Notes under the pieces: generated by a model
Seen by the model: only the letters and a program-made list of their open reading frames with translations
What the model was told of the DNA's origin: nothing
Databases searched by the model: none
Made by a program: the position numbers and the translations under genes
IMG/VR virus record: IMGVR_UViG_3300044910_000148
Coordinates: 1 to 34,249 of that record
Source: a virus
Reading direction: 5' to 3' (one strand)
Length of the DNA: 34,249 nt
Shown: positions 1-34,249 of the stretch, piece by piece
Layout of the letters: every line of letters begins with the position of its first letter
Numbering within the stretch: position 1 is the stretch's first letter

Positions 1-139
1 CAATTTATTGCAGTAAGTTGCCATTTTGATATAGAAGATTGGCTTTTACCGGATTGGGTATTTGATACTGATACAATGACCTTTCGTACTTGCGAAGGGC
101 AAAAAAAAAATAGACCAGCTATTAAATTTGAGATATTCA
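1..139. repeat. Terminal overlap, left copy (circular genome junction)
   Basis: These 139 bases match the last 138 bases of the window. The only difference is an A10 run here (101-110) against A9 at 34212-34220. The repeat lies inside one gene and both copies are read in the same frame, which fits an assembly overlap of a circular or circularly permuted molecule. The closed genome would be about 34,110-34,111 bp. A true short direct terminal repeat cannot be excluded from sequence alone. Confidence 0.93.
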
Positions 140-570
140 ATACAAGTGATAAAACAATCTGGAAAATGTTTGCTAAACACCACTATTTAAGTCATAGTCA
201 TAATAACGCTGCAAGTGTATTCGTAGCTACAATAAATAATCAAATAGCAGGATTTTTAAGTGTTTTATCTTTTCCTCACCCTTTAGTAAAAAACTTTAGA
301 AAAGTTCATAGGTTGGTTATTTTACCAGATTATCAAGGTGCTGGTTTTGGTATTAAGTTCTTAAATGAAGTAGGTAAATACTATAAAAAAAATAAATATA
401 GATTTACTATTGTTACTTCAGCACCAAGTTTAATTAATGCACTAAAAAAATCAACTTATTGGATTTGTAAGCATTATGGAAGAAAACAACCACAAAAAGG
501 AGCATTAAATCGTGGTGTTGGAGATATGGGAAGTGGAAATAGAATAACAGTATCTTTTGAATTAAAATAA
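1..570 (+). CDS. C-terminal part of ABC-ATPase/GNAT fusion protein (5' partial, continues from 33608)
   Basis: The frame is open from base 1 and continues the gene starting at 33608, so the true N-terminus is at the other end of the window. The first residues hold the ABC H-switch region (VSCHFD). After the A10 run comes a GNAT acetyltransferase domain. Its acetyl-CoA loop is visible as RLVILPDYQGAGFG, matching the Q-x-x-G-x-G type motif A. Joined with the other end, the protein is about 357 residues. ABC ATPase plus acetyltransferase fusions are known as COG2401-type proteins, and this looks like one; the substrate is unknown. An ATG at 76 could start a free GNAT protein if the fusion is broken. 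The terminase small subunit follows 20 bases downstream. Confidence 0.8.
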   Translation, partial: QFIAVSCHFDIEDWLLPDWVFDTDTMTFRTCEGQKKNRPAIKFEIFNTSDKTIWKMFAKHHYLSHSHNNAASVFVATINNQIAGFLSVLSFPHPLVKNFRKVHRLVILPDYQGAGFGIKFLNEVGKYYKKNKYRFTIVTSAPSLINALKKSTYWICKHYGRKQPQKGALNRGVGDMGSGNRITVSFELK

Positions 571-589: not shown

Positions 590-952
590 ATGGCAAACGA
601 ACATAACTTAATACCGGCAAAAAAAGGGGAAATAAGAAACCCAAACGGCAGACCGAAGAAGTATGTTACCCTTTTAAGGGAACAAGGGTACAAGTTGAGC
701 GAAATTAATGACACAATACAAGTAATGCTTCAGATGGATTTGGATGATTTAAAAGAGGTTTGGGATAATCCAAAGGCTACAATACTTGAAAAGACAATAG
801 CCAATGCTATGCGTAAGAGTTTAGAGAAAGGCTCTTTGTATTCGGTAGAAACCTTACTTACAAGGGTTTATGGAAAACCAAAAGAAACGCAACAAGTAAG
901 TTCTGATTCAAGAATAGAAGTAGTATTTGTAAATGGGAAAACCATTCTATGA
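590..952 (+). CDS. terS: Terminase small subunit-like protein
   Basis: This 120-residue protein probably recognises phage DNA and hands it to the large subunit for packaging. The N-terminal motif GEIRNPNGRPKK (residues 13-24) is a hallmark of DUF5681-like small proteins found directly upstream of phage large terminases. The rest is charged and helical. Its stop overlaps the start of the large terminase gene by four bases (ATGA), which implies translational coupling. An AAGGA stretch lies about ten bases before the start. Position and motif support the call; no HTH is obvious by eye. Confidence 0.75.
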   Translation: MANEHNLIPAKKGEIRNPNGRPKKYVTLLREQGYKLSEINDTIQVMLQMDLDDLKEVWDNPKATILEKTIANAMRKSLEKGSLYSVETLLTRVYGKPKETQQVSSDSRIEVVFVNGKTIL

Positions 953-2100
953 GGATTGAGTTACCTACTCCACATATTAACCAACAAGCTATCATTGATT
1001 CTCAATCAAGGTTTAGGGTTGTACTTGCGGGGCGAAGGTTTGGAAAAAGTGAGTTGAGCCAAATAGAAATAATAGTCAATGCTTTACAAGGCAAACAGGT
1101 TTTCTATGTTACTCCTACCTACAATCTGGCTCGTGTATTCTTTGACCAATTAAGTAAAGCCGTTCCCTTTGAATCTAATAAATCTGAACTATCAATTAAG
1201 TTCCCAAATGGGGGAGCGGTTTATTTCTTTACAGGGGAACGATTAGACAATCTCCGGGGTAGGAAGTTTCACTTTGGGGTAATAGATGAAGCCTCGTTTA
1301 TTCCAGACCTTGAAAACGGATGGCTCAACTCAATCCGACCTACTTTAACCGACTACAAAGGAAGAGCCTTATTTATCTCAACACCGAAAGGCAAGAACTT
1401 CTTTTACTCTTTGTTCTTGAAATCTGGCGAACCCGATTGGCAATCGTTTAAGTTTACAACCTACGATAACCCACACATCGACAAAACGGAGATTGATGAT
1501 GCAAGACTTCAACTCCCCGAAGTTGTCTTTGAACAGGAGTATATGGCTAATCCGGCTGAAAATGCGGCTAATCCTTTCGGGAGTAGTTACATCAAGCAAT
1601 GCACGTTTGAGGTCAGCCACGAGGCTCCTATTGCGTTTGGAATTGATTTGGCGAAGTCGGTTGACTTTACCGTAATCATAGGCTTGGATAAAAATGGCTC
1701 TGTTTGTTACTTTGATAGGTTTCAAAAGGATTGGAGACAAACCAAACAAGTAATAAATAATTTACCTAAAATACCGATGCTAATAGATTCGACAGGTGCG
1801 GGAGACCCAATCTTCGAGGACTTGCAAAGGGATGGCTTACCGGTTAGTGGGTTTAGGTTTACATCAACTTCAAAGCAACAATTAATGGAAGGTCTCGCTT
1901 CGGCTATCCAACAAAGAAAAATAACCTTCCCACAAGGACACATAACTGAAGAGTTGGAAATCTTTGAATACCAATACACCGCTACCGGGGTTCGCTATTC
2001 AGCACCGCAAGGATTTCACGATGACTGCGTAATGTCTCTGGCTCTTGCTTGGCAACACTACTCACGAAATACAGGACAAGGGAAGTATTCTTTTCTTTGA
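949..2100 (+). CDS. terL: Terminase large subunit (packaging ATPase/nuclease)
   Basis: This 383-residue motor pumps DNA into the prohead and cuts the concatemer. The ATPase domain has a Walker A-like AGRRFGKS (27-34), Walker B FGVIDEA (109-115) and coupling motif ISTPKGKN (143-150). The nuclease domain has an RNase H-like acidic set: D233 in FGIDLAK, D280 in MLIDSTGAGD and D358/D359 in FHDDCVMSLALAW. The length is short but complete for compact terminases. It overlaps the small-subunit gene by four bases. Tail genes, not the portal, follow it. Confidence 0.95.
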   Translation: MRIELPTPHINQQAIIDSQSRFRVVLAGRRFGKSELSQIEIIVNALQGKQVFYVTPTYNLARVFFDQLSKAVPFESNKSELSIKFPNGGAVYFFTGERLDNLRGRKFHFGVIDEASFIPDLENGWLNSIRPTLTDYKGRALFISTPKGKNFFYSLFLKSGEPDWQSFKFTTYDNPHIDKTEIDDARLQLPEVVFEQEYMANPAENAANPFGSSYIKQCTFEVSHEAPIAFGIDLAKSVDFTVIIGLDKNGSVCYFDRFQKDWRQTKQVINNLPKIPMLIDSTGAGDPIFEDLQRDGLPVSGFRFTSTSKQQLMEGLASAIQQRKITFPQGHITEELEIFEYQYTATGVRYSAPQGFHDDCVMSLALAWQHYSRNTGQGKYSFL

Positions 2101-26287: not shown

Positions 26288-26568
26288 TAGAACGGAAGGT
26301 CATTTGGTGGAGTGTTATCGTGTGTAAACTTTGGGTCTAGCTTATGCCTAAATTCAGATTCCTCTGGCTTCCAAGTATCAATCGAGATACTAACATCTTT
26401 GCCGTATTGGTCTGGTTCTGCCTTTACGTTTATGTTTACTTTAATGAATCGGCTACCCTTATATTCTTGGATATGTTCTTTAATTTTGTCCAAGTTAATA
26501 GAGGCTTGTAACCAAGTGTCTGATTTTTTTTTACCGCTCCCGCAGTAGATTTTGGGTTGTTTTTCCAT
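26287..26568 (-). CDS. Single-stranded DNA-binding protein-like
   Basis: This 93-residue protein has a beta-rich core (SRFIKVNINVKAEPDQYGKD, then VSISIDTW) and ends PPNDLPF. The acidic/proline tip with a final Phe is like the partner-binding tip of bacterial SSB. It is shorter than typical SSB (about 115 residues for the fold) so it may be a divergent phage version. It lies beside NinG and the recombinase-like gene. The stop shares one base with the NinG start. Confidence 0.55.
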   Translation of the reverse strand: MEKQPKIYCGSGKKKSDTWLQASINLDKIKEHIQEYKGSRFIKVNINVKAEPDQYGKDVSISIDTWKPEESEFRHKLDPKFTHDNTPPNDLPF

Positions 26569-30557: not shown

Positions 30558-30855
30558 TTACTGTAAGCAACACATTATAAACTTTGAATCAGTAAAACTC
30601 GGATTTACTCGTAACATTCCCTTTGATGTTCTTGGAGAATACGAAAGAATGTACCGGGATTATTTAGATGCACAATTTCATCTAACCTATTGGTGCGGAG
30701 AATGTGTATTCGATATGCTAAAAAGATTAATCGTACTCTATGAAAATGCACAACCGCAAAATAATATTGAAGTTGCACAACAGAAAGTGCAAACAGAGGT
30801 TATCCAAAACACAATCGAAGAAGTAAAGAAAAAAAGAGGCAGACCTAAAAAATGA
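30538..30855 (+). CDS. AT-hook-ended hypothetical protein
   Basis: This 105-residue protein begins MNQKDLDYCKQHIINFESVK, contains LTYWCGECVFDMLKRLIVLY with a C-G-E-C pair, and ends in EVKKKRGRPKK. The GRPKK end is an AT-hook-like minor groove binder. It probably touches DNA. It overlaps both neighbours (20 bases and four bases). The family is unknown. Confidence 0.6.
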   Translation: MNQKDLDYCKQHIINFESVKLGFTRNIPFDVLGEYERMYRDYLDAQFHLTYWCGECVFDMLKRLIVLYENAQPQNNIEVAQQKVQTEVIQNTIEEVKKKRGRPKK

Positions 30856-31859
30856 GAATACTTGTTTTAACAACACAAGGAAGCGGAGTTGGATACCACC
30901 GATTAATGCTACCGATTTACTATTTAGAGAAAACTTATGCTTTCTTTACTGATACTTTAACGGATGAAATATTAGAAGAAAACTTTGATATCGTTCTGTT
31001 CAATAGGTTTATTCCCGGTGTTCCTCTTGAAACTCTTTTAGAAAAGAGAAACAAGTACGGCTTTAAAATGATTTGCGATATAGATGACTATTGGATATTA
31101 GATAGGTCACACATTTTAGAAAGTGTTTATCCAACGCAAGAAATCATTAACCACATTAGAGAAGCGGATTTAGTTACTTGCACTAACGAAAAGTTATGGA
31201 ATGAGATTAGACCTATAAACTCAAATGTCGCTATTTTACCAAACGCACTTCCGTATGGTAATGACCAATTCACAGATGTAAGAGAATACTCTGATAAAGT
31301 TAAGTTCGTTTATACAGGCTCAATAACACACGAAGAAGATATTAAGTTGGTTCAATTCCCTTTTAAGAAAGTAGCTTCCGATTCTGTTTTAAGAAGTAAG
31401 ATTCATTTCCAACTTTGTGGCTTTGATGATTCTGGAGAAGGTTCGGCTGCAATTTGGCATCGGATGATATCAAACTTTACTTGTGGTTTAAAATTAGGAG
31501 ACACAAGAAGATTCCTTCCTGTAACCGAGTATATGAACTTTTACAATGATGCGGATTGTTCTATTGTTCCGTTAAGAGCCACGAAGTTTAATGCAATGAA
31601 ATCCAATCTAAAACTTTTAGAGGCTGCTTCAAAGAAGATTCCTGTTATCGGTAGCCACGTTGAACCTTATTTAAACTCGCCAATGATTCAAGTTAATCAA
31701 CAAGGGGATTGGTATAGGGAGATTAAAAAAGTTACCGAAGATGCTATTTATAGACAGGAAAAGGGTTTGGAACTATTTGAATGGGCAGTTGCAAACTTTA
31801 GTTTATTTAAAGTAAACGAGAAAAGAAAACAATTATATCAATCAATGAATGGTAGTTGA
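30852..31859 (+). CDS. GT4-like glycosyltransferase
   Basis: This 335-residue protein opens MRILVLTTQGSGVGYHRLML, like the nucleotide-sugar domain start of GT-B glycosyltransferases. It has MICDIDDYWIL, VAILPNALPYG, VKFVYTGSITHEEDIKL and ADCSIVPLRATKFNAMKSNL, similar in order to GT4 enzymes. It probably moves a sugar onto a phage or host surface molecule. The LbH acyltransferase-like and GT2-like genes nearby support a glycan-modification cassette. The acceptor is unknown. Confidence 0.7.
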   Translation: MRILVLTTQGSGVGYHRLMLPIYYLEKTYAFFTDTLTDEILEENFDIVLFNRFIPGVPLETLLEKRNKYGFKMICDIDDYWILDRSHILESVYPTQEIINHIREADLVTCTNEKLWNEIRPINSNVAILPNALPYGNDQFTDVREYSDKVKFVYTGSITHEEDIKLVQFPFKKVASDSVLRSKIHFQLCGFDDSGEGSAAIWHRMISNFTCGLKLGDTRRFLPVTEYMNFYNDADCSIVPLRATKFNAMKSNLKLLEAASKKIPVIGSHVEPYLNSPMIQVNQQGDWYREIKKVTEDAIYRQEKGLELFEWAVANFSLFKVNEKRKQLYQSMNGS

Positions 31860-31862
31860 GTT

Positions 31863-31982
31863 ATGGCTAAATCAGGAACTATTGGAAAGATATCTTTCGG
31901 AAAGAGAAGAAAAGGAAAGGCTAATAAGGGAATTAATAAACATAATCGAAAGGAACGAAATTATCGTGGGCAAGGTAAATGA
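31863..31982 (+). CDS. 39-residue very basic protein
   Basis: This frame encodes MAKSGTIGKISFGKRRKGKA and then NKHNRKERNYRGQGK. Almost half the residues are Lys, Arg, His or Asn. I have seen similar tiny basic proteins next to glycosyltransferase-like genes in phages of Bacteroidota. It likely binds nucleic acid. It starts three bases after the GT4 stop and fills most of the gap before the LbH gene. Confidence 0.6.
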   Translation: MAKSGTIGKISFGKRRKGKANKGINKHNRKERNYRGQGK

Positions 31983-32009
31983 TATTAAATTCTTAAAGGT
32001 CAGTAATTA

Positions 32010-32486
32010 ATGTTTATTCATCCTACCGCAATAATCTATCCCGGAGTAATAATAGAACCCGGTGCTTACATTGGGGAGTATTGTATTATTGGAGCAAGTG
32101 CAGAATGGAAAGGTTATGAACATCACACAGGCAAGGTTTTAATTATGAGCGGAGCAAGATTAACAGGATTGGTTACTGTGGATTCGGGTACAGACAAAAG
32201 GACTATTATAGGGCAGAATTGTTTGTTGCTTAAAAAAAGTCACGTAGGGCACGATGCTATTTTAGCAGAAGGAGTTACTTTAAGTTGTGGTGCTATGATA
32301 GGTGGGCATTCAATAATCGAAAGGAATTGTAACATAGGACTAAACGCAGTTATACATCAGAAATTAAGAATACCTGAAGGTTGTATGATTGGTGCTTCTG
32401 CTTTTGTAGGTAAGAAATCTATTCTAAAACCTTTTCATAAATACGCAGGAGTTCCTGTAAAAGAAATAGGATTAAATGCTCGTTAA
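32010..32486 (+). CDS. Left-handed beta-helix acyltransferase-like
   Basis: This 158-residue protein is built of hexapeptide repeats: IYPGVIIEPGAYIGEYCIIG, LIMSGARLTGLVTV, VTLSCGAMIGGHSIIERNCN and IPEGCMIGASAFVG. LbH enzymes acylate sugars or lipid A precursors. H91 or nearby His (SHVGHDA) could be the base. It ends VPVKEIG as in sugar O-acetyltransferases. It may decorate sugars added by the neighbouring glycosyltransferases. Confidence 0.75.
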   Translation: MFIHPTAIIYPGVIIEPGAYIGEYCIIGASAEWKGYEHHTGKVLIMSGARLTGLVTVDSGTDKRTIIGQNCLLLKKSHVGHDAILAEGVTLSCGAMIGGHSIIERNCNIGLNAVIHQKLRIPEGCMIGASAFVGKKSILKPFHKYAGVPVKEIGLNAR

Positions 32487-33114
32487 TATTATTTTTTTAG
32501 ATTACGAAAGGCACACCTTTACAGAACAAGTAAAGAACAGAAACTTCTCTAATGCAGGGTATGATTTTTCTTTTACTCAAGTAGGAATGAAAGGAATATC
32601 ACGAGCCTTGAATTATGGAATCTCAAGAAGCAAAGCCTTTGATGCCATAGTAACAATGGCTAACGATATTTTAATGCCAGATAATTGGCTTTTAAGAATG
32701 GTAGAAGCGGCTTTAAATATCCCCAATACAGGGATGTGCGGAATACATTGCGTAGAAGGAATCAATCCCTCACAAACAATTAACGGAATACAAATACACC
32801 CACAAGATGCTTCTTTCGGGAATGTCTTAATACCGATGGCAGCAATAGAAAAGATTGGATATTTTAACGAGGCTTATGACCCTTATGGAATGCAAGATTC
32901 CGACTATGCTTTCCGTTTAAAGATGACCGGTCACATAAACTATTACTTGCACGATTTAAGGTCTGAACACATAGGACACGATGTAGGACAAGATACCCCT
33001 TACAGAAAAATGAAGGATGAAGGATTAAGTAAGTGTGATTACTTATGGTCAAGGGAAACAAAAAAATACCACGACAATAACGACTATACTATCTTCCTAA
33101 ACGAATACGAATGA
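32476..33114 (+). CDS. GT2-like glycosyltransferase
   Basis: This 212-residue protein has a GT-A-like core: MLVNIIFLDYERHTFTEQVK, GISRALNYGISRS, FDAIVTMANDILMPDNWLLR (metal-site region ANDI), GYFNEAYDPYGMQDSDYAFR (typical GT2 acceptor-side motif) and a HIGHD end. It overlaps the LbH gene by 11 bases and the ParB-like gene by four. It probably acts with the GT4 and LbH enzymes. The DxD motif is only partial (AND). Confidence 0.7.
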   Translation: MLVNIIFLDYERHTFTEQVKNRNFSNAGYDFSFTQVGMKGISRALNYGISRSKAFDAIVTMANDILMPDNWLLRMVEAALNIPNTGMCGIHCVEGINPSQTINGIQIHPQDASFGNVLIPMAAIEKIGYFNEAYDPYGMQDSDYAFRLKMTGHINYYLHDLRSEHIGHDVGQDTPYRKMKDEGLSKCDYLWSRETKKYHDNNDYTIFLNEYE

Positions 33115-33629
33115 AAGCAGAGTTTATTTCAATAAGTAAAGTAAAAGCCAATCCAAACAATCCGAGGATAATTAAGGATGATAAGTTTGAGAAGTTGGTT
33201 AAAAGCATCAAAGAGTTCCCTAAAATGCTTGAGTTAAGACCGATTGTTGTAAATGAAGATATGATTGTCCTTGGTGGTAATATGCGTTTAAAGGCTTGTA
33301 AAGAAGCAGGACTTAAAGAAATACCAATCATTAAGGCAAGTGAACTAACAGAAGAGCAACAAAAGGAATTTATTATTAAAGACAACGTAGGTTTCGGAGA
33401 ATGGGATTGGAATGATTTAGCAAATAATTGGGAGGCGGAAAAGTTAGAGGAATGGGGATTGGATATTCCGGGGTTTGAAAATTTAGAGTCAGAAGAACCA
33501 GATGATTTATCTGATAAAATTAAATCAGAGTTTAGAATAGAAGTTATTTGTAAAGATGAAAAAGAGCAAGAAATTACATACAATAAATTTATAGGAGAAG
33601 GATACGAATGCCGACTTTTAACATTGTAA
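33111..33629 (+). CDS. ParB-like nuclease/partition-domain protein
   Basis: This 172-residue protein has a ParB N-terminal-like domain: ISKVKANPNNPRIIKDDKFE, then IVVNEDMIVLGGNMRLKACK with the GGNMR box (ParB GGHxR type). A phage-typical tail follows (DNVGFGEWDWNDLANNWEAE). Such proteins often lie next to packaging genes or DNA-modification genes; CTPase or nuclease activity is possible. Here it overlaps the ABC-ATPase gene by 22 bases, tying the two together. Confidence 0.75.
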   Translation: MKAEFISISKVKANPNNPRIIKDDKFEKLVKSIKEFPKMLELRPIVVNEDMIVLGGNMRLKACKEAGLKEIPIIKASELTEEQQKEFIIKDNVGFGEWDWNDLANNWEAEKLEEWGLDIPGFENLESEEPDDLSDKIKSEFRIEVICKDEKEQEITYNKFIGEGYECRLLTL

Positions 33630-34249
33630 GAGAAAGCAAACCTAAAAAAAGTTTTAGAGTTGCATCAGTAGTTGGTAAGTTTGACTTACCATCTGAACAT
33701 ATTATTGAAAATTTTCAAGGTAATATTGACCTACCAGAAAATTGGCAAATTGGTTTAATTGTTGGCAAATCTGGTACAGGTAAAACAACAATAGCAAAAG
33801 AATTATTCCCAGATTCATATATAACCAATTTTGAATATAAAGCCGAAAGTATTTTGGATGATATGCCTCAAAATAAATCGGTTGAGGAAATAAGTTCAGC
33901 TTTTAATTCTGTTGGCTTTTCAAGTCCTCCTTCTTGGCTTAAACCATATTCAGCATTAAGTAATGGGCAAAAGATGCGAGTTGATTTAGCCAATGCTATT
34001 TTATCTGATAGACAATTATTTGTATTTGATGAATTTACAAGTGTTGTTGATAGAAACGTAGCACAAATAGGTTCATTTGCTATGCAAAAGGCAATAAGGA
34101 AAACAAATAAACAATTTATTGCAGTAAGTTGCCATTTTGATATAGAAGATTGGCTTTTACCGGATTGGGTATTTGATACTGATACAATGACCTTTCGTAC
34201 TTGCGAAGGGCAAAAAAAAATAGACCAGCTATTAAATTTGAGATATTCA
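33608..34249 (+). CDS. N-terminal part of ABC-ATPase/GNAT fusion (3' partial, continues at 1)
   Basis: The ATG at 33608 starts an ABC-type ATPase that runs off the window end and continues at base 1. Walker A is GKSGTGKT (53-60), signature LSNGQ (117-121), Walker B LFVFDE (137-142), D-loop SVVD (145-148), and the H-switch His is 176. With the A9 run at this end the frame would leave the GNAT domain and stop after about 30 further residues. With A10 it continues into GNAT. The gene overlaps the ParB-like gene. The substrate is unknown. Confidence 0.8.
   Translation, partial: MPTFNIVRESKPKKSFRVASVVGKFDLPSEHIIENFQGNIDLPENWQIGLIVGKSGTGKTTIAKELFPDSYITNFEYKAESILDDMPQNKSVEEISSAFNSVGFSSPPSWLKPYSALSNGQKMRVDLANAILSDRQLFVFDEFTSVVDRNVAQIGSFAMQKAIRKTNKQFIAVSCHFDIEDWLLPDWVFDTDTMTFRTCEGQKKIDQLLNLRYS
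34112..34249. repeat. Terminal overlap, right copy (circular genome junction)
   Basis: This is the second copy of the overlap at 1-139. It carries nine A residues (34212-34220) where the left copy has ten. The one-base difference changes the reading frame of the ABC-ATPase/GNAT gene that crosses the junction, so the two copies predict different proteins. Confidence 0.93.

Follow-up and report, generated by a model that had tools for sequence, protein, structure and literature searches.

A ten-adenine tract and adjoining hairpin as a candidate recoding site between the ATPase and acetyltransferase domains of a phage gene

The ATPase-GNAT gene and the ends of the contig

The stretch of DNA analysed here, referred to as the window, is one circular phage contig of 34,249 bases from IMG/VR, whose redundant ends fall within a single gene that joins an ABC ATPase to a GNAT acetyltransferase domain. 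The features at and around this gene are as follows.

33111..33629, + strand: ParB-like protein (Pfam ParB_N 1e-8); its last 22 nt are shared with the beginning of the ATPase gene
33608..34249, + strand: ABC ATPase-GNAT gene, 5' part, with the A9 copy at the contig end (Pfam ABC_tran 8e-10; phrog_11143 1.5e-59); continues at 1
34191..34210, + strand: the hairpin stem-loop again, within the redundant end of the contig (identical 109-nt repeat)
34212..34220, + strand: the tract with nine A, at the end of the contig (assembly or sequencing error, or minor variant)
1..570, + strand: ABC ATPase-GNAT gene, 3' part, with the A10 copy and GNAT domain (Pfam Acetyltransf_1 7e-7; phrog_11143 1e-45)
77..101, + strand: RNA hairpin adjoining the tract (stem 80-87/92-99; outer pairs 77-78/100-101; loop 88-91)
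101..110, + strand: candidate A10 slippage tract, codons CAA AAA AAA AAT (synonymous freezing; A10 in 94 of 96 unique relatives)
111..113, + strand: TAG, out of frame in the A10 message, in frame after one added A (A11) or a -1 shift; chain ends at 205 aa
188..190, + strand: TAA closing the A9 (or +1-shifted) frame; 230 aa
590..952, + strand: small-terminase-like gene, downstream neighbour (weak DUF5681 match; assigned by its position before TerL; 97.5% identical in L003)
949..2100, + strand: terminase large subunit (Pfam Terminase_6N 4e-14)

Positions 1-139 and 34112-34249 are the same apart from the number of A residues in one tract (139 versus 138 nt), and the identical repeat between the two ends is 109 nt long. 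An earlier sequence-only reading of this DNA had correctly recorded ten A at one end and nine at the other within otherwise identical flanks, and had taken the gene segment to occur twice; the same letters do stand at both ends, but they are the overlapping ends of a circular contig and not a duplication. The nearest relative (L003) matches the end-joined window collinearly over 5.5 kb spanning the join, with 86% identity, and has four genes, ParB-like, ATPase-GNAT, small-terminase-like and large terminase, in one piece; in the full-length relatives the ATPase-GNAT gene is internal. A duplicated gene can thus be ruled out, and a physical terminal repeat is unlikely because the gene is internal in the contigs of the relatives. 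An exact flank search of IMG/VR found no other copies of this phage.

When the ends are joined with ten A, the gene (33608-34111 plus 1-570) has 357 codons and encodes an ABC ATPase-GNAT fusion, so that the ten-A tract keeps the two domains in frame as had been proposed. The nine-A form likewise ends soon after the ATPase, as predicted, running 26 residues beyond the tract to a TAA in the HHYL codons and yielding a 230-aa ATPase. The further suggestion that the ATG at 76 might restart a separate GNAT protein in that form fails, as this ATG sits 25 nt 5' of the tract and opens the ATPase frame, not the GNAT frame. Eleven A, which occur naturally in one relative (L171, reading ...EGQKKK*), place a TAG directly after the tract and end the chain at 205 aa. 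The simplest account of the difference between the two copies is faulty assembly or a minor variant: the A9 copy may stem from an error in the homopolymer, from a bubble in the assembly or from a minority genotype, and the conclusion on recoding reached below is independent of it.

Pfam places the ABC ATPase at the N-terminus and the GNAT domain at the C-terminus, and both parts match the PHROG family phrog_11143, whose profile has 357 positions. The window gene resembles the proteins of this family in its domain order and in having a ParB-like neighbour, and those of Gordonia, Leptospira and Porphyromonas phages are fused, as is the A10 gene here. The L003 protein, modelled with AlphaFold (mean pLDDT 78.5), matches the fusion of Leptospira phage LE4 with a TM score of 0.81, and comparison of this model with the PDB returned ABC ATPases and generic GNATs, with no closer function. 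The profile of the Mom (Mu) family gave no match, the GNAT part matching generic acetyltransferase profiles only. A phage ABC ATPase-GNAT pair is cited in PMC7824862 as predicted to modify DNA bases, and the role of the present system is probably DNA base modification or host takeover. As for the phage itself, its terminase large subunit has at most 36% identity to named phages among the matches listed, and no match was found for its probable capsid gene. Just 5' of the ParB-like gene, the region 30852-33114 holds two glycosyltransferase-like genes and, as read from the sequence, a hexapeptide-repeat acyltransferase-like protein at 32010-32486.

Conservation of the tract and the hairpin beside it

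The sequence-only reading had proposed that the same tract be sought in related phages, and there it was found. Exactly ten A are present in all 80 of the nearest IMG/VR loci, which were collected with peptide patterns that excluded the tract. Among unique tract-bearing sequences, with duplicates removed, 94 of 96 have A10 (one of the 94, L160, being of the firmicute type described below with its A10 at another place), and the other two have A11 (L171) and A12 (L173). When synonymous changes were counted on a tree built from 92 unique coding sequences, the six codons for QKKNRP (CAAAAAAAAAATAGACCA) had 3, whereas about 82 would be expected from the behaviour of conserved codons for Q, K, N, R and P in the rest of the gene; codons 202-205 had none. 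The least variable comparable 6-codon window elsewhere, among those with at least five conserved degenerate codons and outside both the hairpin/tract region and the ParB overlap, has 35 changes. The same freezing is seen in codons 1-7 of the ATPase gene, where it overlaps the ParB-like gene, and this stretch serves as an internal control showing that the test detects real double constraint. Codon bias as a cause of the A-run is ruled out by this tree-based test. The A10 is the sole ten-base run in the window, for which dinucleotide shuffles expect 3.7. An out-of-frame TAG or TAA directly after the tract is kept in nearly all relatives. The site combines three marks of programmed transcriptional slippage sites: a homopolymer of at least nine A or T in coding sequence, conserved beyond coding need, and a shifted frame with a defined product, the 205-aa ATPase. 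Just past the TAG, the CCA of codon 207 (window 111-119) is also frozen, with 1 change where other conserved P codons average about 20.

Immediately 5' of the tract lies a hairpin with an 8-bp stem and a 4-nt loop, extended by two further pairs as far as the first A of the tract; its predicted fold has an energy of -12.4 kcal/mol (z -3.2), and its codons before the tract (ACC TTT ... GAA GGG) are also synonymously frozen. Among 55 distinct sequences, pairing is retained in 97.6% of cells, versus 32-64% when the partner is slid. Changes on both sides of a pair occur in 26 cells, a count reached in none of 500 shuffles, although by parsimony these amount to only 2-3 independent events at the best pair. 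One relative (L172) has the same layout with a different stem, CGUUUC/GAAACG, and in another (L245) the hairpin, again kept with other stem letters, reads CCTTTCGG-AAAA-CCGAAGGG. Neither this hairpin nor the TAG figured in the earlier picture of the site, which was to that extent incomplete. On the 3' side of the tract there is no conserved structure in L010, L039 or L172, and a small hairpin is present in the window alone.

A further run deserves mention. The open reading frame at 2131-2891, between the terminase and tail genes, carries a T9 run at 2603-2611 and a -1 frame open from 2628 to 2891, which is kept together with the T-run in L003, L012, L067 and others, while L073 and L038 are fused in frame and lack the T-run. 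To judge from its layout, this looks like a frameshift of the tail-assembly-chaperone type and would be a second slippage site in the same phage. Another T9 run lies at 26524-26532 on the + strand.

The same junction in related phages

Related phages place the GNAT domain out of frame at this very junction, in several ways. In the sister clade around L151 (11 contigs, with L229-L233 and L235-L239) the tract is A9 and the GNAT domain lies at -1; the hairpin is absent from this clade. One member, L234, has A10 with GNAT in frame, also without the hairpin, and this single-base difference means that the slipped and unslipped messages have their roles reversed. Elsewhere the GNAT domain lies at -1 after A10 and then G (L154), at +1 after A9 (L152), and at -1 after T9 (L105, L252 and L253). 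L240 groups with the A9 clade by its ATPase, but carries the A10 hairpin at its junction together with a different GNAT, which suggests recombination there. In two other relatives (L061 and L066) an in-frame TAA interrupts the ATPase at codon 121 of an otherwise intact gene, reflecting a broken gene or an error; reading of TAG as glutamine is ruled out there, the internal stop being TAA.

A different arrangement is found in phages of Firmicutes, namely Lactococcus P335, the Streptococcus phages Javan141, Javan523, Javan420, MismyG and phiGBSVK-E1, Oenococcus phages and similar contigs. Here the reading frame of the ATPase ends at 225-226 aa, the GNAT domain lies at -1, and in most members no ATG, GTG or TTG precedes it. 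At the junction there is a T-run (T_TTT_TTT, T_TTT_TTC, A_AAT_TTT or G/A_GTT_TTT), a spacer of 5-7 nt and a stem, CCCAC...GTGGG, which covaries (CCCCC/GGGGG, GCCC/GGGC, GCC/GGC) and folds to as much as -28 kcal/mol. The slip heptamer T_TTT_TTY or A_AAT_TTT is present in 8 of 19 of these cousins (L102-L105, L156, L157, L159 and L161), and G/A_GTT_TTT in the remainder except L083. In these features, and in that fusion requires a -1 shift, the cousins resemble E. coli dnaX and the insertion sequences that use -1 frameshifting; they differ in that the P-site codon is often GTT (G_GTT_TTT), a non-classical heptamer, and in that Vinitor-27 lacks the stem and may shift at A_AAG_GGC instead. A heptamer with a spaced stem, leading into a -1 frame that has no start of its own, is the arrangement expected of -1 ribosomal frameshifting, which these cousins probably use. 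GenBank records of several members (L083, L086-L089, L094, L095 and L098) give the GNAT domain as a late-starting fragment and mostly name the ATPase an 'ABC iron siderophore transporter', and in Thomasclavelia phage TR-TP2 (L096) and Enterococcus phage 9184 (L097) the ATPase and GNAT genes overlap in different frames, with possible internal starts as an alternative to frameshifting. A genome scan with the Lactococcus P335 ATPase confirmed no relatives.

In a tree of the ATPase domain a single supported clade (95/84; 51 rows) unites all these junction forms, L105 and L256 excepted. No member of it is plainly fused, the nearest being L234, its only in-frame member without a hairpin, which still has A10. 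Plain fusions without a slippery site occur in the Pseudoalteromonas SL25 group and in phages of Gordonia, Leptospira, Porphyromonas and others, all outside this clade; with so many related phages plainly fused, the making of two products is not universal in the family. No report of recoding at this domain junction or in this family was found in the open-access literature searched.

Candidate mechanism and its alternatives

The synonymous freezing, the covarying hairpin, the out-of-frame stop and the relatives in which the GNAT domain lies out of frame at the same junction together argue that the A10 tract and its 5' hairpin form a selected recoding site, through which stem-loop-assisted transcriptional slippage would yield free and GNAT-fused ATPase from one gene; we place the probability of this reading at about three in four. 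The central idea of the sequence-only reading, that one gene might make both forms by slippage, is thus strongly supported. Messages copied faithfully would encode the 357-aa fusion, whereas an RNA polymerase that slipped on the tract, with help from the hairpin forming in the nascent transcript, would insert one extra A; translation of such a message would reach the UAG at once and yield a 205-aa ATPase lacking the GNAT domain. Loss of one A would also end the chain early, at 230 aa. ATPase with and without GNAT would in this way come from one gene at a fixed ratio, perhaps for mixed dimers with zero, one or two GNAT arms. The cousins, whose genomes set the two domains in other frames, would obtain the same two proteins through slippage on tracts of nine A or nine T, or else through -1 ribosomal frameshifting at a T-run with a stem behind it. 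Conservation, covariation and the frame relations are directly visible in the alignments, and from them we infer slippage itself, the choice of RNA polymerase over the ribosome, the efficiency of the event, the protein ratio and the role of the two products.

Several known systems offer parallels. Slippage on nine A or T is efficient, and has been measured for the nine T of Thermus thermophilus dnaX (tau/gamma), where, as here, the long product lies in the genomic frame and slippage on a homopolymer of 9-10 nt leads to a truncated product that retains the N-terminal ATPase, stops lying near in the other frames (PMC5009743). That gene is unrelated to the phage ABC ATPase-GNAT gene, which in addition has a covarying hairpin at its tract. 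Slippage of 15-25% has been measured on the poly-A tracts of tssM (C. rodentium tssM1 and Y. pseudotuberculosis tssM3), where again an A-run gives proteins of two lengths and the genome encodes either the long or the short form (PMC4256274), the same reversal as between the A10 and A9 clades; tssM differs in encoding a T6SS membrane protein, and its slippage was measured whereas that proposed here is deduced. In the Roseiflexus IS630 element a short inverted repeat adjacent to the motif on its 5' side forms a stem-loop in the nascent RNA that enables slippage (PMC5009743), and the window clade has its covarying inverted repeat (77-101) in the same place. The T5C5 motif of that element needs its stem, whereas A10 would be slippery in itself, and an effect of the hairpin on the host RNA polymerase is suggested by analogy with this one insertion sequence.

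In the alternative closest in outcome, the two forms would come from ribosomes shifting into the -1 frame on A_AAA_AAA, in the manner of E. coli dnaX, and the UAG would end the short form. It would lead to the same two products, the short protein being identical by either route, and differs only in the machine responsible. A -1 shift on the A-run reads AAA and then UAG directly, which is the dnaX layout, a purine-rich GAAGGG stands just before the tract, and the cousins probably shift in this manner. Such frameshifting usually requires a structure 3' of the slip site, and no conserved stem or pseudoknot lies 5-9 nt 3' of it in the window clade. The GAAGGG, moreover, is nearer to the A10 than the Shine-Dalgarno element of dnaX is to its site, which counts against this route. 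The conserved hairpin lies 5' of the tract and touches it, where polymerase slippage is stimulated (PMC5009743); with this and the lack of 3' structure, transcriptional slippage is favoured in the window clade and the ribosomal route appears doubtful.

Other explanations would dispense with two products per genome, or with recoding altogether. That the two tract lengths are a homopolymer error or a bubble at the ends of a circular contig, a single fused protein being made, agrees with the near-uniform A10 of the relatives and with the occurrence of the A9 copy only at the contig end, where it is the reason that the window ends fail an exact-repeat test. Sequencing or assembly error, raised already in the sequence-only reading, is indeed the simplest account of that copy; it does not explain why tract and hairpin are synonymously frozen, and leaves over the A9, A11, A12 and T9 relatives and the out-of-frame versions in firmicute phages, so that as an account of the site it is improbable. 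The same variants, namely A9 at the window end, A11 and A12 in L171 and L173, and A9 versus A10 within one sister clade, might instead point to phase variation in the DNA, with frequent changes in tract length setting GNAT on or off in each genome. A contingency locus should vary among close relatives, whereas A10 is nearly fixed (94 of 96) and the A9 copy of the window is found solely at the contig end; such a switch would need neither hairpin nor TAG, and the DNA-level A9/A10 switch put forward earlier is thus very improbable as the normal mechanism. Least likely of all is that hairpin and A10 form a DNA or RNA site with another task, such as packaging near the terminase, replication or mRNA processing. 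The terminase genes are only about 0.5 kb away and codon 207 past the TAG is frozen as well, but the same junction changes frame in cousins with unrelated letters, and the out-of-frame stop is kept.

If stem-loop-assisted slippage does operate at this junction, the need for a free ATPase beside the ATPase-GNAT protein would suggest a mixed oligomer. We lean towards the view, drawn from these sequence comparisons, that selection acts on the proportion of free to fused subunit, which may be set by interchangeable devices at one domain junction: stem-loop-assisted slippage on A10, slippage on A9 or T9 with the roles reversed, and -1 frameshifting. The family would then represent a natural experiment in recoding, in which lineages of one gene family switched between polymerase slippage and ribosomal frameshifting while keeping their products, as happened for dnaX. 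Hairpin-assisted transcriptional slippage would also gain a further natural example, supported by covariation across dozens of sequences. Current annotations of the firmicute phages miss the fusion and call the GNAT domain as a truncated separate gene, and recognition of the recoding site would provide a handle on a widespread, uncharacterised phage system that is predicted to modify DNA.
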